Positions 31,933-39,881 of a stretch of DNA of 64,000 bases are shown here, piece after piece (the stretch's first letter is position 1; the number at the start of each line of letters is the position of its first letter). The notes below the pieces were generated by a model that searched no databases, had not been told where the DNA came from, and saw nothing but the letters and a program-made list of their open reading frames with translations. Source of the DNA: Planctomycetota bacterium (GTDB lineage: Bacteria > Planctomycetota > UBA1135); NCBI GenBank assembly GCA_030748415.1, contig JASMMA010000002.1, positions 1 through 64,000 of the forward strand, given 5' to 3'. The position numbers were made by a program, and so were the translations under genes.

Positions 31933-33093
31933 GTGAACAAGGAACTGCTTCGTTTTTGGACCCTGGATTCAGGTGTGGCCTATTTGAATCATGGCTCCTT
32001 TGGCGCAGTTTTGAGTGTAGTCCAGGAACACCAAAATGAGTTGCGCCGGCGAATGGAGGAACAGCCTTATGACTTTATGGTGCGGCAGTTGCGGCCGGCT
32101 CTCGCTGAAGCTCGTTCAAGCTTGGCTTCTTTTCTTGGTTCCAGTCCAAATGATTTGGTTTTTGTAAACAATGCAACTGAGGGGGTGAACTCCGTTTTGC
32201 GTTCTTTCCCCTGGAAGCCAGGCGACAGGATTTTAGTAACCGACCATGAATATCAAGCTTGTCGAAACGCAGTAGATTTTGTCGCGGGGCAATTTGGGTT
32301 GGAAGTTGATGTTGCAGAGATTCCGTTCCCCTTGATTTCGCCAGACATTGTTGTGGATCAAGTGTTGGGATTGGTCTCGCCCCAGACCCGATTAGTTTTG
32401 CTGGACCATGTAACTTCTCCCACGGCGTTGATTCTTCCTATCGAACGCCTGATTTCAGCTCTTCGCTCGGACGGTATTCAGGTGCTAATTGATGGAGCCC
32501 ACGCGCCGGGAATGTTGTCCCTGAACCTGAACCACCTTGGCGCGGATTACTACACAGGCAATTGTCATAAGTGGATGTGCTCTCCCCGTGGCGCAGGGTT
32601 TTTGTGGGTGCGTGAAGAACGACAGGAAGAGGTGCGTCCGGTTTCAATTTCTCATGGAGCAAGCGAAGATTCTCCGGAGATAACCCGTTTTATCGAAGAG
32701 TTTTCTTGGAAGGGCACTGATGACCCAACTGCTTGGTTGTGCGTTCCTGCGGCAATCGCTGCTTTGGATAGTTTGGCCAGCGGGGGATGGCCTGACATCA
32801 TGCAAGCTAACCGACAGTTGGCGCTGGAAGCCCGGGATATTTTGTGTACGGCCCTTTCGATTGCGCCACCTGCCCCGGATTCCATGATTGGCTCCATGGC
32901 AAGCATTCCTCTTCCACCTGGGGACCCGGAACTTTTTTACAAGCAACTTCTCTCATTGGGCATTGAAGTTCCCGTGTTTAATTGGAACCACTCCCGCATC
33001 CTCCGCATATCAGCACAAATCTATAACACCCGCGAGGATTACGAAACTTTATCGCAAAACATGATGCTTGCGAGTGGCGGCGATTTCGTTTAA
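31933..33093 (+). CDS. Class V aminotransferase, isopenicillin-N-epimerase-like
   Basis: A 386-residue PLP enzyme of the NifS/CefD branch. It begins FWTLDSGVAYLNHGSFGAV, typical of the group. FVNNATEGVNSVLRSF binds the cofactor phosphate, IQVLIDGAHAPGM supplies the Asp and His around the ring, and YYTGNCHKWMCSPRGAGFLW has the Schiff-base Lys in HKW. Family members are cysteine desulfurase-like, epimerases or ergothioneine EgtE-type lyases; the annotation isopenicillin N epimerase is common but rarely proven. It is a lone gene with a GTG start supported by the N6 rule. Downstream the ordered gene layout breaks off. Confidence 0.85.
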   Translation: MNKELLRFWTLDSGVAYLNHGSFGAVLSVVQEHQNELRRRMEEQPYDFMVRQLRPALAEARSSLASFLGSSPNDLVFVNNATEGVNSVLRSFPWKPGDRILVTDHEYQACRNAVDFVAGQFGLEVDVAEIPFPLISPDIVVDQVLGLVSPQTRLVLLDHVTSPTALILPIERLISALRSDGIQVLIDGAHAPGMLSLNLNHLGADYYTGNCHKWMCSPRGAGFLWVREERQEEVRPVSISHGASEDSPEITRFIEEFSWKGTDDPTAWLCVPAAIAALDSLASGGWPDIMQANRQLALEARDILCTALSIAPPAPDSMIGSMASIPLPPGDPELFYKQLLSLGIEVPVFNWNHSRILRISAQIYNTREDYETLSQNMMLASGGDFV

Positions 33094-33209: not shown

Positions 33210-33731
33210 ATGAATCGTGGCTTTGTGCGTCATCTTTGGGGTGAGCTCCAGCCAATACAAATCACTGGGAGAACTGCTTCAGCTTGTTTTAGCTCGGGTT
33301 GCTCGCGCGAAGAAGCCGAAAAAGTTGCCGGTTGTTATGTCGGTGAGCGAAGTTTGATATCTACTTCATGAAAACAAAGGCACTCCTCGGCTTATGGCTT
33401 CTCTTTTGTATGGGAGTGGCCGTGGCAATGGGTTATTCCGGCGACTTCTCATTATTTCCATAAAGAGACGGCAAGATGGAGAAGGCACCATCTTCATGAA
33501 ACGGTGTTGCAGAAAGAGGTTCGCCGGTCGGTGCGCGAGTTGCGTTTTAGCAAGTGGGTGACTTGCCACACTTTTCGGCACTCCTTTGCCACACATCTTT
33601 TGGAATCGGGGTCGGACATTCGCACGATTCAGGAATTGCTTGGGCATTCTGATGTGAAGACAACCATGATTTATACTCATGTACTGAACAAGGGCGGCTT
33701 GGGAACTCGAAGTCCACTGGACCGCTTGTAG
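33210..33731 (+). pseudogene. Integron integrase (IntI) pseudogene
   Basis: Remains of an IntI-type tyrosine recombinase in at least three frames. First, GFVRHLWGE near 33219. Next, an open piece to the TGA at 33355-33357 ending ARAKKPKKLPVVMSVSEV, the segment linking the IntI N- and C-domains. Third, an open frame from 33372 to the TAG at 33729 with [54 protein letters not shown] and [20 protein letters not shown]. The HxxR and GH..Y catalytic residues remain, and EWxWQ...RRHH plus YTHVLN(K/R)GG are IntI traits. About a third of the protein, including the first catalytic Arg, is lost between the pieces. The gene cannot make a working enzyme. Confidence 0.8.
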
Positions 33732-33885
33732 ATAGGTTGTGCATGTCTGTGTTCCGCTAGGATTTGCACTAAGGGCACCCCGTAAAAGTTGTATCATGCC
33801 ACCAACGACTCAACCCCCAGACCAGCCTATCCTCCCTTTCTACAGATACGCAGGTCTTTCGAATAATAGTTAGGAGTAAAAGCAT
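33732..33885 (+). other. Gap after intI, no supported gene
   Basis: Holds an open frame of only 25 codons (33796-33873, MPPTTQPPDQPILPF...), probably a truncated gene start, and a TAGGAG ribosome site at 33871-33876 that serves the DUF4177 gene. An attI site could lie here but none was recognised. Confidence 0.4.
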
Positions 33886-34104
33886 ATGACAAAATGGGAA
33901 TACAAAAGCATCGTTGGGCTTCTAAACTCAAGTGGTGCGCTTGGTGGTTTGCTCAAGGGGTGGAACCTAAAGGCAGAAACTAACGATACTGTAAAAGACC
34001 TTGGCGAGGAAGGGTGGGAGATGGTCAGTATCACCAGCATCAACGTACTCGGGTTTACCAAAAACGTACTCATGATTTTCAAGCGTCCTAAGGAATCTTC
34101 ATGA
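33886..34104 (+). CDS. DUF4177-like small protein
   Basis: A 72-residue protein. MTKWEYKSI at the start, LGEEGWEMVSI in the middle and IFKRP at the end match DUF4177, a family of one-domain proteins of unknown function, though here a Gly/Leu-rich insert follows the first strand. TAGGAG ten bases upstream is a good ribosome site, unlike most genes of this window. It sits between the integrase pseudogene and the attC-like site, where a cassette gene would be expected. Confidence 0.65.
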   Translation: MTKWEYKSIVGLLNSSGALGGLLKGWNLKAETNDTVKDLGEEGWEMVSITSINVLGFTKNVLMIFKRPKESS

Positions 34105-34138
34105 ACCTACCCTTGGACTATCTAAGAGTTTTAGAGTG

Positions 34139-34312
34139 ATGAAAAAGAAATTGGGAAGAACATTTATAATCCCTGGAACAGTTTTCTTAGTAATCGGCTT
34201 GGTGCAGCAAGAATTCACTCTAAGTTTTAAGAGTGGAATGTTTAATTTAGGAATCATATTTGTTCTCTCAGGAATAGTAGCGAACATTCTGCACAAAAAT
34301 GAGACTACTTAG
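34139..34312 (+). CDS. Small two-helix membrane protein
   Basis: A 57-residue frame with a Lys-rich start (MKKKLGR) and two hydrophobic segments (FIIPGTVFLVIGLV and FNLGIIFVLSGIVANIL) joined by a short polar loop. Hydrophobicity and the K/R-rich cytoplasmic end look like a real membrane protein, but no family is recognised. It ends 9 bases before the attC-like site, as the last gene of a cassette would. Confidence 0.45.
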   Translation: MKKKLGRTFIIPGTVFLVIGLVQQEFTLSFKSGMFNLGIIFVLSGIVANILHKNETT

Positions 34313-34321
34313 AAGTATAAG

Positions 34322-34423
34322 GTCCAGCAAGTCGCTGGAGGTGACCACCATCGCTGATCCTGCTACCCACTTCGAGCTTCACAGGCCTCGCGCTCGTGTG
34401 GCACCTCAGCTTTAACGCTGGCT
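34322..34423 (+). other. attC-like recombination site
   Basis: A 102-base imperfect palindrome with attC geometry. The 5' arm is GTCCAGC (34322-34328), spacer AAGTC, then GCTGGAGGTGACCAC (34334-34348). The 3' arm is GTGGCACCTCAGC (34398-34410), spacer TTTAAC, then GCTGGCT (34417-34423). The inner arms pair except for two extra bases in the 5' arm (G in GCTGG and A in GTGACC), equivalent to the extrahelical bases that guide IntI. The outer boxes pair through CCAGC/GCTGG, and the unequal spacers would form the unpaired central spacer. The core triplet is AGC/GCT rather than the usual AAC/GTT, which weakens the match. Confidence 0.55.
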
Positions 34424-34567
34424 AGAATGTGAATATAACCGGTTGCGCCATGCTCAATTGTGAGGATAAGGGAATGACAAGCGGAGGGATGGCCGGGAAA
34501 TACGAGACGACTAATATTGCAGGTGAGTCAGTGAATTCATTCCTAAAACACTCGCCCATTAATATGA
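34424..34567 (+). other. Non-coding gap
   Basis: No convincing gene. A 65-codon frame runs through here in a different phase from the hsdR fragment and has no recognisable features. Confidence 0.4.
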
Positions 34568-34798
34568 CTTCGAATACCCCGAGAAAAACTAATCAAACTC
34601 GCCAAAGAGGTAAAGACGGTGGTTGATGATAAAGCTAATTACCCCGATTGGAGCCTGCGCAACGATATTAAAGCCGAATTAAAGGCCGACCTAATTATCC
34701 TGCTTGCCGAAAACGGCTACCCACCAGTCGATCGCGACGAAGTGTATAAAGAAATTTTTGAACAGGCCGAGAACTTTAAAAAGTACACCGCCAACTAA
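34568..34798 (+). pseudogene. 3' fragment of a type I restriction endonuclease gene (hsdR)
   Basis: An open frame of 76 codons without a start, preceded by a stop at 34565-34567. It ends with PDWSLRNDIKAELKADL, LLAENGYPPVDRDEVY and EIFEQAENFKKY, the recognisable C-terminus of HsdR proteins. The helicase and nuclease parts are gone, and no hsdM or hsdS gene is near. It is a relic, consistent with the decay seen in the flanking integrase gene. The next 95 bases up to 34893 hold nothing recognisable. Confidence 0.75.
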
Positions 34799-34893
34799 AA
34801 GCCGTAGGCGTTCTAGGTCAATACCTTATTGCAAGAAAAGCTTGGGTGTTTTCAGAAAGGAACGAGGCGGGTAGTCGTGAGTTGTTAAGGGAA

Positions 34894-36342
34894 TTAACCT
34901 ACAGTTCCTGAGAATAGTGTTGAGAAAAGGGCACGGTTGGTGCTGTAGGCGTGCATCCATACATTCAGGCCAATAGCATTCGCAGGGATGCTAGCGGAGT
35001 GCTGAACTTGGCCAGAGTTGTTTGCGGTAAAGATGCCCATTAATTGAATAGGAGAGCTAAGTGCGACATCACCAAAAACCGTGGAAGTGGGCCCACCTCC
35101 GGTAAGTGAATAGCCCAAGTAAATTTTGTCTCCTGGTGATGCGCCATCAATGCTGATGTTGGCATTTGCCCCAGCTGCAAAGTTAGTCACCGACAACGCT
35201 AATGGAGTGTATGAGTACCTGCGAATATAGTGGGTGCCAGTTCCCATATTTTGAGCTCCGAAAAAGTCGTTAGTGCCATCGCCGTCCAGGTCGGTGTTTG
35301 CAAGGGCAATCCCTTGGTCGTAAGCGCGAGCCTCATCTGGCAATATGGCGCCAGTGCGGTGGGAGGCAACGAACAAATAAGTACTTCCTGAAATCAATAA
35401 ATCTTCGTTGCCATCACCCGTGGCATCGGTTGGGACAATTACAGTGCCTATGCGCTTGCCGTTATTCCCAGTAATGCGATCAATTTCTTGCCAGCCACTA
35501 CTTTCATAAACGGCAACAAAGCCATCGTCTTGGTATTCTTCAATTGCACCAATCAGCAATTCTGCAACGCCATCACCATTCCAGTCGCTTACTGCAAGAG
35601 ATTTTCCAAATTGTTGCCCCTTCCAGGAGCCATCAAGTTTGACGATTTCCGAGAAAGTGGAACCAGATATAACGGCAACAAAGCCGCGGCTGTTGTATCC
35701 ATTACCTGAGCCAGTATCTGCAGCGGGAGCGCCGAAGGCATAGTCCAAAACACCATCACCATCGAAATCGCCCGATACAAAATATGAATCAATCAGTACT
35801 TTGTCATTTGCGCGTTTGCCTCGATAAACGACTTGGCGGGGTGTTTGGTCGCTAAACACTAAGTAGACCGCGCCCAAATTATTTTTGCCGTTCCAGTCTT
35901 CATATGGGGCACTTACGAGTAATTCAGGCAGACCATCTCCGGTGAAGTCAGGAATAACAATGCCGTTATAGCCAAAGAGATCGCCAATGGGCTCGTTATA
36001 GGTGAACAAGTTTTGTCCGGTTGCCGAGGACAAAATTGAAATTTGGTTTATGGTTGAAAATAAAACATAGTCTCGAAGTCCGTCGGCGTCTAGGTCTTCA
36101 GTAAGTGCGGCAATGGTGTATCTGCCAATATGCGAGCGTAGCAAGGAGCCATCTATTCCAGAGAGAATTTCATAACTGCTGTCCGAGGTGACCAGTACCT
36201 CTTCATAGCCATCGGCGTTAATGTCTGGAAGAGTCAATATAAAATCTCCATACATAAAATCGGTGGATGGGTGTGCCCACAGTTCTTCTATTTGAGGCAC
36301 AGGGCTGAAAGACAAACAAAGGGGGGCAAGAAGACTAAACAT
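34894..36342 (-). CDS. Secreted FG-GAP (integrin-like) repeat protein with shared C-terminal module
   Basis: A 482-residue exported protein. Signal peptide MFSLLAPLCLSFSPVPQ. Seven FG-GAP/VCBS-type blades follow with Ca-binding loops: PDINADGYEE, DLDADGLRD, DFTGDGLPE, DFDGDGVLD, DWNGDGVAE, DATGDGNED and DLDGDGTND. Together they should form a seven-bladed propeller. From about residue 375 the shared beta-rich C-terminal module follows (LALSVTNFAAG...). The ATG at 36342 starts the signal peptide; the frame is open a further 66 codons upstream, but that stretch overlaps the divergent DUF2200 gene. TAAGGT lies 8 bases before the ATG. Confidence 0.85.
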   Translation of the reverse strand: MFSLLAPLCLSFSPVPQIEELWAHPSTDFMYGDFILTLPDINADGYEEVLVTSDSSYEILSGIDGSLLRSHIGRYTIAALTEDLDADGLRDYVLFSTINQISILSSATGQNLFTYNEPIGDLFGYNGIVIPDFTGDGLPELLVSAPYEDWNGKNNLGAVYLVFSDQTPRQVVYRGKRANDKVLIDSYFVSGDFDGDGVLDYAFGAPAADTGSGNGYNSRGFVAVISGSTFSEIVKLDGSWKGQQFGKSLAVSDWNGDGVAELLIGAIEEYQDDGFVAVYESSGWQEIDRITGNNGKRIGTVIVPTDATGDGNEDLLISGSTYLFVASHRTGAILPDEARAYDQGIALANTDLDGDGTNDFFGAQNMGTGTHYIRRYSYTPLALSVTNFAAGANANISIDGASPGDKIYLGYSLTGGGPTSTVFGDVALSSPIQLMGIFTANNSGQVQHSASIPANAIGLNVWMHAYSTNRALFSTLFSGTVG

Positions 36343-36429
36343 TCTGATTAACCTTACCACGGGTTTTGTATTCTGGATAGAGCCAAAATAAGCCCGCGCC
36401 TGTTTGCGGATACAATCTTGGTCAGTGAA

Positions 36430-36789
36430 ATGAGTCCAGAAAGCAGAGATGAACGAATTGCAAAAATGGTGTTTGCAAAGATTTATCCACTTTACATTGA
36501 TAAGGTGGAGAAAAAGGGCAAGACCGTAGAGGAGCTTCATCAGGTAATAACTTGGTTAACCGGTTTTACAGATGAAGATATTCAAAGGTGCGTAAAGCGC
36601 GAAATTTCCTTTGCCGAATTTTTTGACCAAGCCACTCTAAATCCCAACGCGCATCTTATTAAGGGTGTTGTCTGCGGACATCGAGTCGAGGAAACTGAAA
36701 ATGAACTTACCCGCAAAGTGCGTTATTTGGATAAGCTAATCGACGAATTGACGCGTGGTAAAAAAATGGAGAATATCTTGCGCGGCTAA
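36430..36789 (+). CDS. DUF2200 family protein
   Basis: A 119-residue soluble protein. The family pattern is clear: RIAKMVFAKIYPLYIDKVEKKGKT, ITWLTGFTDEDI, the middle block FFDQATLNPNAHLIKGVVCGHRVEE and the ending VRYLDKLIDELTRGKKMENIL. DUF2200 proteins are common single-domain proteins of unknown role, often spread by transfer. The ATG at 36430 is taken; TACAAT at 36411-36416 is a possible -10. The stop TAA doubles as part of the -10-like element for the SET-domain gene. Confidence 0.85.
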   Translation: MSPESRDERIAKMVFAKIYPLYIDKVEKKGKTVEELHQVITWLTGFTDEDIQRCVKREISFAEFFDQATLNPNAHLIKGVVCGHRVEETENELTRKVRYLDKLIDELTRGKKMENILRG

Positions 36790-36798: not shown

Positions 36799-37620
36799 GT
36801 GCAAGTAACTCATCGCTTTTTGATTTTCCTTTCCGCTTTGGTTTGGTATGGCGGGGGAGTGGGGTTGGCGTGGAAGGGCTCGGCTTTGTTGTTGGAAGCG
36901 AATTCAATCAATCAAGATGGGGTGTGGAGTATTTTGGCGCCACTATTAGGTGTCGTGATAGGGGTGATTAAAGCAAAATTTATTTTTATAAAAAACTGTC
37001 GCAAAAATATTACTCGGATTAATCAACTTCTTCAGCCAAAGCCTTGGCAGTTTTTTAGATTGAGGTTTATGTTTATTCTTCTAATTGCAATTACTGTAGG
37101 CACAAGTTTGTCAAGCATGGCGCATGGTCACTATAACTTTTTATTGTTAGTAGGCGTTATAGATATAAGTGTAGCAGTCGCATTATTAGTAAGTAGTTTT
37201 GTTTATTGGAACCCTACTTATATAATGCTATCAATGAATAAAGTTGTAGTAGAAAACCATGCAAGTGATGTTGTAGGGCGGGCAGTTTATGCCGCTTGTG
37301 ACATAAGCGTTGGCGAAACCCTAATTCAAAGTAGTCACATTAAAGAATTAGGCCGTCGAGATCGTTACTCAATGGAGAGAGACGGGAAACACATCTTGAT
37401 ATCGGAGCCTGGGGTCATAGTGAATCATTCTTGCTCTCCAAATTGCAAAGTTGTGCCGAATTCTGCTGGAGCATTTGATTTTATTGCCCTAAAAGAAATC
37501 TCCAAGGGCACTGAAATCACTTTTGATTACTTGTCCAACGAAGCAGAGGTTACGGCTTTTACTGATTGTTGTTGTGGTTCTGCTCGTTGTCGTCGAACCA
37601 TGAGCAACACTAAATGTTAA
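36799..37620 (+). CDS. Four-helix membrane protein fused to a SET domain
   Basis: A 273-residue protein. Residues 1 to about 140 hold four hydrophobic segments (FLIFLSALVWYGGGVGLAW; WSILAPLLGVVIGVI; RFMFILLIAITVGTSL; FLLLVGVIDISVAVALLVSSF). From about 150 a SET methyltransferase domain follows: VVGRAVYAACDISVGETLI, then the catalytic NHSCSPNC with the knotted core, FDFIALKEISKGTEITFDYLS, and a post-SET-like Cys cluster CCCGSARCRR that could bind zinc. SET domains transfer methyl from SAM to protein lysines. Membrane anchoring is unusual, and the target is unknown. The stop overlaps the next gene by seven bases. The fusion is in one open frame. Confidence 0.75.
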   Translation: MQVTHRFLIFLSALVWYGGGVGLAWKGSALLLEANSINQDGVWSILAPLLGVVIGVIKAKFIFIKNCRKNITRINQLLQPKPWQFFRLRFMFILLIAITVGTSLSSMAHGHYNFLLLVGVIDISVAVALLVSSFVYWNPTYIMLSMNKVVVENHASDVVGRAVYAACDISVGETLIQSSHIKELGRRDRYSMERDGKHILISEPGVIVNHSCSPNCKVVPNSAGAFDFIALKEISKGTEITFDYLSNEAEVTAFTDCCCGSARCRRTMSNTKC

Positions 37621-38027
37621 GAACAATAATCGCTATCGTTTTGGGCCTGGCCGTTGGCTCAATGGTCAATATGGGCATAATTATGGTAGGTCCTAATTTT
37701 GTCCCACCACCAGCTGGAGTCGATGTGACCGACATCGATAGCATCACAGCCAACGCCCATCTCTTCGAGGCCAAGCATTTTCTTTTCCCGTGGTTGGCCC
37801 ATGCCACCGGCACCTTGGCCGGCGCAATCGTGGCCAGTCTGGTCGCGAGTGCTAGGCGTAAAATTGCTGGCCTAGTTGTTGCCGGTGCATTTTTGGGTGG
37901 TGGAGTAATGATGGCCCTCTCCGTACCCGCACCAATTTGGTTCCTAATTTCAGACTTGGGTCTTGCCTACATTCCAATGGGCCTCTTGGGGCATAAATTA
38001 GCCCGTGCGTGGAAGCCAGGCATTTAG
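37614..38027 (+). CDS. Conserved four-helix membrane protein
   Basis: A 137-residue membrane protein. Segment 1 is IIAIVLGLAVGSMVNMGIIMVG, then an extracytoplasmic loop (FVPPPAGVDVTDIDSITANAH), WLAHATGTLAGAIVASLVA, AGLVVAGAFLGGGVMMALSVP and a last short segment. The PPPAGVDVTD loop followed by a Gly/Ala-rich helix pair is seen in small membrane proteins of many marine bacteria whose role is unknown. Coupled to the SET-domain gene by a seven-base overlap (ATGTTAA). Confidence 0.65.
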   Translation: MLRTIIAIVLGLAVGSMVNMGIIMVGPNFVPPPAGVDVTDIDSITANAHLFEAKHFLFPWLAHATGTLAGAIVASLVASARRKIAGLVVAGAFLGGGVMMALSVPAPIWFLISDLGLAYIPMGLLGHKLARAWKPGI

Positions 38028-38061
38028 CGCACCTAAATAATCTGCTAGGATTCTCCCTTAA

Positions 38062-38781
38062 GTGCGAGACTCCCTGTACCAAAAAGACGAAGACTTAGTC
38101 GAAGCATTCCGCTTTGACGAGAGCGTAGCCGAAGTGTTTGCCGACATGGTGCAACGCTCGGTGCCTGGGTACTCAGCTCTACTTTCCCTTATTGGGGTTA
38201 TTGCCAATCAGTTCGCGACCGCAGGCAGTAATTGTTTTGATTTAGGATGTTCCCTCGGTGGCGCCACCCTTGCCATTGACAAGGCCACCTCCGGGCGCAA
38301 CTGTCATATTTACGGAATCGATAATTCCGAGCCGATGCTCGCTCAAGCTCAATCCAAACTAACAGGAATTGCCAGCAATCGCGTGCAATGGGTGTGCGAA
38401 GATTTGCTTAACACCAATATTCAAAACGCTTCTTTAGTGGTACTAAACCTAACTTTGCAATTTGTCGCCCCCAAGCACCGCCGCCAGGTAGTGGAAAAAA
38501 TCTATCAAGGCTTATTGCCAGGCGGGGCGCTATTGATTTCCGAAAAGGTGAAATTTGCCAGCGCCGCTAAGCAACAGCGTTTTAGCGACTTGTACTACGG
38601 CTTTAAACGCGCCAATAGTTATAGCGAATTGGAAATTGCCCACAAGCGCAACGCCCTAGAAGAGGTAATGATTTTGGACACACCAAAAACTCACCTTGAC
38701 CGCTTGGCCGACACGGGCTTTTCTTCAGTAGAGCAGTGTTTCCAAGCCTTTAATTTTGTAAGTTATTTGGCAATAAAATAA
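38062..38781 (+). CDS. cmoA: Carboxy-S-adenosyl-L-methionine synthase
   Basis: A 239-residue SAM-binding protein matching CmoA, which makes carboxy-SAM from SAM and prephenate for tRNA wobble modification. Seen: DLVEAFRFDESVAEVFADMV, YSALLSLIGVIA, the SAM loop CFDLGCSLGGATLA, YGIDNSEPMLAQA, LNLTLQFVAPKHR and LLISEKVKF, then FSDLYYGFKRANSYSELEI. The length fits the family (about 245). The start is a GTG ten bases after TAGGAT. It is joined to cmoB by a TAATG overlap. The pair is typical of Gammaproteobacteria and unexpected in this setting. Confidence 0.92.
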   Translation: MRDSLYQKDEDLVEAFRFDESVAEVFADMVQRSVPGYSALLSLIGVIANQFATAGSNCFDLGCSLGGATLAIDKATSGRNCHIYGIDNSEPMLAQAQSKLTGIASNRVQWVCEDLLNTNIQNASLVVLNLTLQFVAPKHRRQVVEKIYQGLLPGGALLISEKVKFASAAKQQRFSDLYYGFKRANSYSELEIAHKRNALEEVMILDTPKTHLDRLADTGFSSVEQCFQAFNFVSYLAIK

Positions 38782-39749
38782 TGATAGATTTTCAGCCGGC
38801 AATCGCCGTTTTGGAAGAGTCGCAAATTCCATGGCCGTGTACAAAGCTGAAACGCGATTTGGAACTTGCGCTCGACAAAAACCTAAACGGAAATTTAGAG
38901 CGATGGTTTGAAGCATTAGCCAACTTGCCACAAGTAAAATCCGAACAAGTTGCGTTAAATCAAGATTGCATCCAAGTGGGCTTAGCCACTAACTTGAATT
39001 CTGCCCAACATGGCGACTTAAAGCACCATTTAAAAGCTTTGCATCCGTGGCGAAAGGGCCCCTTTGAGTTGTTTGGGTTAAAGGTGGATAGTGAGTGGCG
39101 ATCCGACTGGAAATGGCAACGAATTTCCCCCCATTTGTCGCCCCTAAAAGACCGCCTAGTATTAGATGTGGGTTGCGGAAACGGGTACTACGCCTTGCGT
39201 ATGGCTGCAGAAGGCGCCACTGTTTTTGGCATTGACCCAAGCATGTTGTTTGTAAGTCAATTCGCAGCAATTACTGGCTTTATGAAAATGCGGCCAAGTG
39301 CGTATTGCCTGCCTTTTGGTATCGAACAAGTGCCAGCGAATCTTCATGCATTCGATACAGTTTTTTCAATGGGAGTCCTTTACCACCGACGCAACCCAGC
39401 CGAGCACATTAACGCCTTAGTGAACACCCTTCGACCCGGTGGAGAACTAGTTCTTGAAACACTGGTTATCGACGGCGGTAAAAATGATGTGCTTATTCCT
39501 GAAGGTCGCTACGCAAAAATGCGTAATGTCTGGTACATTCCGAGCATAGAGCATTTATTTTGCTTATTGAAACAAGCTGGCTTAAAAGAAATCCGTTTGA
39601 TCGACGATTCAATTACAACAACTGAAGAACAACGCTCAACAGAATGGATGACCTGGGAGTCATTGGCCAACTTCCTTGATCCAACCGACAAAAGCAAAAC
39701 CATCGAAGGCCACCCAGCTCCACGAAGGGCAAGCATTATTGCTTCATGA
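38781..39749 (+). CDS. cmoB: tRNA U34 carboxymethyltransferase
   Basis: A 322-residue partner of CmoA (E. coli CmoB has 323). It transfers carboxymethyl from carboxy-SAM to 5-hydroxyuridine-34 to give cmo5U, widening wobble reading. Motifs: HPWRKGPFELFGLKVDSEWRS in outline, the SAM loop LVLDVGCGNGYYALRM, FGIDPSMLFVSQF, FDTVFSMGVLYHRRNP, LRPGGELVLETLVIDG and YAKMRNVWYIPS. Translation follows directly from cmoA (stop and start share one base). It ends the run of closely packed plus-strand genes from 36430. A 132-base gap with TATAAT at 39839 precedes the next gene. Confidence 0.93.
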   Translation: MIDFQPAIAVLEESQIPWPCTKLKRDLELALDKNLNGNLERWFEALANLPQVKSEQVALNQDCIQVGLATNLNSAQHGDLKHHLKALHPWRKGPFELFGLKVDSEWRSDWKWQRISPHLSPLKDRLVLDVGCGNGYYALRMAAEGATVFGIDPSMLFVSQFAAITGFMKMRPSAYCLPFGIEQVPANLHAFDTVFSMGVLYHRRNPAEHINALVNTLRPGGELVLETLVIDGGKNDVLIPEGRYAKMRNVWYIPSIEHLFCLLKQAGLKEIRLIDDSITTTEEQRSTEWMTWESLANFLDPTDKSKTIEGHPAPRRASIIAS

Positions 39750-39881
39750 TTGCCCTGGCGGTTTTGAGTCCATTCGCTGATAACTGAATGTCTTGAGTTT
39801 GAATATTTGTGGTTTACTAAGACCAATTGGGCTGAGCCTATAATTCAGCCTGCTTTAATCCCCAAACCCACAATCCCCAAA

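Follow-up and report, generated by a model that had tools for sequence, protein, structure and literature searches.

A site at positions 34322-34423 of the window (the whole 64-kb stretch of DNA that was analyzed, from a planctomycete-like MAG) is very probably a real attC that ends a gene cassette once inserted at the adjoining attI, in an integron that is now a static relic and whose core pair changed during or after decay. As neither an intact integrase nor a further detectable attC was found in the genome, the locus is best read as an integron relic. The site is classed as an attC variant and not as a canonical attC, because a core AGC/GCT replaces AAC/GTT. The new part is this compensated core; integrons of this sort, and their decay, are already known. 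The features of the locus are the following:

33289-33420 (+), intI pseudogene fragment 1, profile match to TIGR02249 positions 86-129, with one in-frame TGA
33414-33731 (+), intI pseudogene fragment 2, C-terminal part, profile match to TIGR02249 positions 211-315, with a stop codon
33736-33757 (+), first copy, now decayed, of a repeat (CGTTATGCAGGTCTGTATAACGC in G007) that family relatives carry immediately 3' of intI
33819-33869 (+), attI (AGACCAGCCTATC...ATACGCAGGTCTTTCGAATAATAG), conserved across six related loci
33870-34417 (+), integrated cassette, 548 bp, starting at the T of the attI junction GTTAGGA and ending at the G of the attC R' box, the exact cut being presumed
33886-34104 (+), cassette ORF 1, 72 aa, profile match to DUF4177 (31.4 bits, cut-off 25)
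34136-34312 (+), cassette ORF 2, 58 aa, small hydrophobic protein
34322-34423 (+), attC, core AGC/GCT, whose bottom strand folds (covariance model, layout scan and fold)
34322-34328 (+), R'' box GTCCAGC (consensus RYYYAAC)
34334-34344 (+), L'' box GCT[G]GAGGTG[A], which holds both extrahelical bases (bottom strand T-N6-C)
34345-34401 (+), variable terminal structure of the attC (fold and covariance model)
34402-34410 (+), L' box CACCTCAGC (covariance model and fold)
34417-34423 (+), R' box GCTGGCT (consensus GTTRRRY)

When the bottom strand was folded as DNA, positions 34324-34328 paired with 34417-34421 (P about 0.9), and an inner stem formed between 34334-34346 and 34400-34410. Both extrahelical bases (34337 or 34338, and 34344), roughly 6 nt from each other, sit on the R''-L'' arm, with none on the other arm, and the central spacers are unpaired and unequal (34329-34333, 5 nt, versus 34411-34416, 6 nt). 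This fold agrees with the initial annotation, which had described two single unpaired bases on one side only, an unequal spacer and outer boxes. The core triplets are AGC (34326-34328) and GCT (34417-34419), where the conserved core would read AAC in R'' and GTT in R'. The stem is unbroken except for its outermost two R pairs, and no decay was seen elsewhere in it; natural attCs, too, often leave these two pairs open. The remainder of the R boxes (GTCC/GGCT) fits the consensus RYYY/RRRY with one departure, in R', of a kind common among relatives (e.g., GTTAGCC in G042). The fold energy of the site was unremarkable (z of -1.23 for the bottom strand and -0.35 for the top strand), so energy by itself would not establish an attC.

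The spacings are identical to those of the aadA1 attC: the R'' box, 8 nt, an extrahelical base, 6 nt, an extrahelical A and the stem on one arm, and 6 nt, 9 nt and the R' box on the other. The aadA1 attC sequence used as the reference matched plasmid records at 100% identity. A layout scanner, designed with the site already in view, gave the attC a score of 17.4. That score was reached by 0.2% of 3000 dinucleotide-preserving shuffles of positions 33732-34894 with any core triplet allowed, a value partly dependent on the site, unlike the covariance model, since the first cut-off had missed the site by 0.1 (the outermost two R pairs being mismatched) and was lowered before the shuffles. Once the G[A] bulge motif was also required, 0/3000 shuffles reached it. 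A free-core scan of 1.15 Mb of integron-bearing loci returned the AAC core 28 times, versus 0 in resampled sequence, which indicates that the grammar of the scanner picks out real attCs.

A cleaner test was provided by a covariance model trained on 45 canonical attCs, all lacking the AGC core, from integron loci of planctomycete-like bacteria, cyanobacteria, Chloroflexi, proteobacteria and others. Its sole match in the 64-kb window was 34322-34423 on the (+) strand, over the full model (1-57), with 31.1 bits and an E-value of 1.8e-6. The same model gave 143 matches in 99 sources (1.2 Mb), and the score of the site is within the range of real arrays, e.g., 22-33 bits 3' of the intact intI of G002, a family member. 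The default search returned the full-length match, and a search of 33-36 kb with the filters off returned the inner stem alone (12.7 bits). A covariance check had been proposed in the initial annotation, and ours was significant. That annotation had staked the site on a covariance score or a second copy; the site stands because the score is significant, whereas the search for a second copy with the AGC/GCT core failed in the genome both as a DNA copy search and as a pattern search. The pattern RYYYAGC...GAC...GCTRR, searched with one loop-length range, recovered the site and two others in the genome, which equals the level of the reversed control, so that no second AGC...GCT site stood above control level.

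The whole-genome covariance search found no attC, and it missed the window's own site too; this search is therefore blind to variant cores, and further such sites are possible. Run on ten genomes together, it gave 1-16 matches in 8/10, the relatives acting as positive controls. In the window, the model found no second attC closing a cassette past 34423. Instead of the two or more attCs of an array, a single one was found, in the window and in a genome search partly blind to variant cores. The left arm of the site, GTCCAGCAAGTCGCTGGAGGTGACCA, resembles the attC GCTTAACAAGCCGCTGGAGCTGACCG of G042, a genome of the same order.

In place of the intact intI reading frame of a sedentary chromosomal integron, the locus holds two fragments only, and TIGR02249 positions 130-210 were not found between them. 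The last 75 aa of fragment 2 are up to 81% identical to the longer IntI of relatives. The genome yielded no intact integron integrase, its further TIGR02249 matches being other tyrosine recombinases that scored under the cut-off; as the assembly is 90.6% complete, an intact intI could be absent from it. Intact integrases and attC arrays are present in family relatives, and 3/5 of the relatives searched with TIGR02249 had an intact intI.

When the sequences 3' of intI were aligned across six related loci, the similarity fell off beyond the junction G^TTAGG (...ATACGCAGGTCTTTCGAATAATAG^TTAGGA, 33869/33870), and the loci diverged into different cassettes. The attI that this conservation marks beside the intI relic is an addition to the initial annotation. 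The repeat that immediately follows intI in family relatives is palindromic (CGTTATGCAGGTCTGTATAACG in G007) and decayed in the window; it may be a candidate attI arm or integrase binding site. The family member G007 also holds two separate relics, each with an intI 3' end and an attI (L023:10525-10740 and L041:9012-9128), so that in this family intI has repeatedly lost its 5' part while attI persisted.

The attI junction gives the left boundary of the cassette and the attC the right one, hence its 548 bp. ORF 1 begins at the 17th base of the cassette; it has nine distant homologues, 0/9 of which lie beside a detectable attC. ORF 2 has no family match above the cut-off. The attC starts 591 nt past the integrase stop (33731) and about 9-10 nt past ORF 2, and it closes the 3' end of the cassette ORFs near attI. 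The distance of 591 bases after the integrase remnant had been given in the initial annotation and agrees with the ORF list and the sequence; likewise, the two tiny genes said to precede the site, as in a cassette, correspond to the two small ORFs between attI and attC. The cassette start (G^TTAGGA) and its own R'' box (GTCCAGC) pair imperfectly and are not an ideal matched pair. intI, attI, cassette and attC all have the same orientation, as in family relatives. Overall, the attC-like site that had been proposed at 34322-34423 is upheld by the covariance model, its geometry and orientation, the nearby attI and integrase relic, and the real attCs of relatives.

The likely history of the locus would be as follows. 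An integron integrase would have inserted the cassette at the attI next to it, in a sedentary integron of the inverted type, with cassettes 3' of intI and on the same strand. The integrase would then have been lost by a deletion and a stop, leaving attI, one cassette and the attC. During or after this decay, both partners of the middle core pair would have changed, turning A-T into G-C, with G·T as the simplest intermediate state if this order of changes is correct, and the stem still folds. The site is presumably inactive in cis at present. Such a locus illustrates the death of a sedentary integron, in which attI, one cassette and an attC outlive the integrase.

The closest counterparts are the attCs of planctomycete-like sedentary chromosomal integrons (G042, G002), which share with the window the R''-spacer-L''/L'-spacer-R' layout, the G[A]C bulge motif, the extrahelical bases on the matching arm and the orientation downstream of intI and attI. 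These integrons have an AAC/GTT core, in contrast to the AGC/GCT core, single site and dead integrase of the window. In the integron remnants of Treponema phagedenis, an attC and cassettes outlast intI, in a lineage whose cassettes lie on the intI strand (PMC3607928). The window resembles them in what is left after intI loss and in belonging to a same-strand lineage (PMC3607928), but it has a single cassette and retains attI and a recognizable 3' piece of intI.

In the 138 attCs that have letters at both middle core positions, the pair was A-T in 135 and G·T in 2; the attC of the window alone had G-C. The core had been described as changed on both sides with pairing kept, which is accurate and unique in this set. 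Two attCs of other integrons, L031:4990-5046 and L098:3829-3909, carry half-changed AGC/GTT cores, with the same R'' A to G change as the window; unlike the window, their R' still reads GTT (a G·T wobble) and other attCs are present in the locus. Core changes confined to one side occur in a handful of other attCs. On folding, the core pair had a probability of 0.90 as G-C and 0.98 as A-T, whereas the two half-changed forms gave 0.00 and 0.54. AAC and GTT were reported to be the sole conserved bases of attC (PMC2727003), and IntI1 was reported to need GNT only, with a laxly constrained second base (PMC10127599). GCT fits GNT and G-C pairs, so the change preserves both the pairing and the minimal motif. 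The secondary sites of IntI1 share this minimal GNT with the GCT of the window but are off-target and without an attC hairpin (PMC10127599). No natural compensated attC core was found in the literature searched, which held general statements only (most subscription papers being outside our reach).

We give about an even chance to the same relic having acquired the core change unselected, either by a quasipalindrome correction that copied one mutation across the arms or by two independent transitions on partner bases. The dead intI is in line with this account, both core changes are transitions, and by a rough count two substitutions in the six core bases land on pairing partners in about 1/10-15 cases; a template-switch correction within the hairpin could also yield a paired change. 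The lack of decay in the remaining stem speaks against it. The initial annotation had taken the paired change to argue for a variant core over random decay. The change itself is real, but that argument is weak, given a dead integrase and odds that are not especially long for two chance changes to hit partner positions. Although such a core is rare, the case for selection over coincidence is modest.

It is unlikely that the site is a functional attC with a compensated core, in which an ancestral or outside integrase would cut G^CT (bottom AG^C) and selection would have kept the two sides matched. An attC stem intact save for the outermost two R pairs, next to a fragmented intI, would be expected of such a site, as would the relaxed requirement reported for IntI1 (PMC10127599), and two attCs of other integrons are already half changed. 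However, neither an intact intI, in a genome that is 90.6% complete, nor a second AGC/GCT copy or any other attC was found in the genome, and the A-T middle pair is retained almost throughout the 138 attCs. An unrelated hairpin (a terminator, a repeat element or a chance inverted repeat) that merely resembles an attC is highly improbable: the fold energy alone would allow it, but the covariance E-value, the shuffles, the attI and cassette boundary, the single copy in the genome, the absence of any Rfam match at gathering thresholds in the 64-kb window and of a T-run after the hairpin all oppose it, and the chance hairpin in particular was rejected by the shuffle test and the covariance model.

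With the integron relic as the preferred reading, residual recombination at the AGC/GCT site might still be possible by analogy with IntI1, which reportedly tolerates GNT. We regard it as quite improbable that some IntI recombines AGC/GCT cassettes, so that the middle core position would need pairing and not the letters of AAC/GTT. AAC/GTT is usually regarded as the fixed part of attC, and the compensated core separates base identity from pairing. A natural AGC/GCT site offers a simple test of whether IntI reads the letters of the core or its pairing. Detection tools that require AAC/GTT could overlook such sites.

The same-genus genome G001 lacks the stretch from 33.1 to 36.8 kb of the window, but it shares the flanking genes, namely a class V aminotransferase gene that ends at 33093 and, on the other side, a conserved gene that starts at 36799. 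Just past the attC, 34541-34798 (+) encodes the C-terminal piece of an R subunit of type I restriction (PF11867, E 4e-16). G023, G007, G021 and G017 contain similar DNA, and the G007 copy is also a short ORF (140 aa), not a full hsdR. A protein with apparent FG-GAP-like repeats (34894-36540, -) and a DUF2200 protein (36418-36789, +) are encoded inside the stretch missing from G001. Further downstream, 37620-39825, also absent from G001, spans tRNA wobble-uridine modification genes, namely a CmoA-like methyltransferase gene followed by CmoB (38062-39749, +; TIGR00452, 431 bits).
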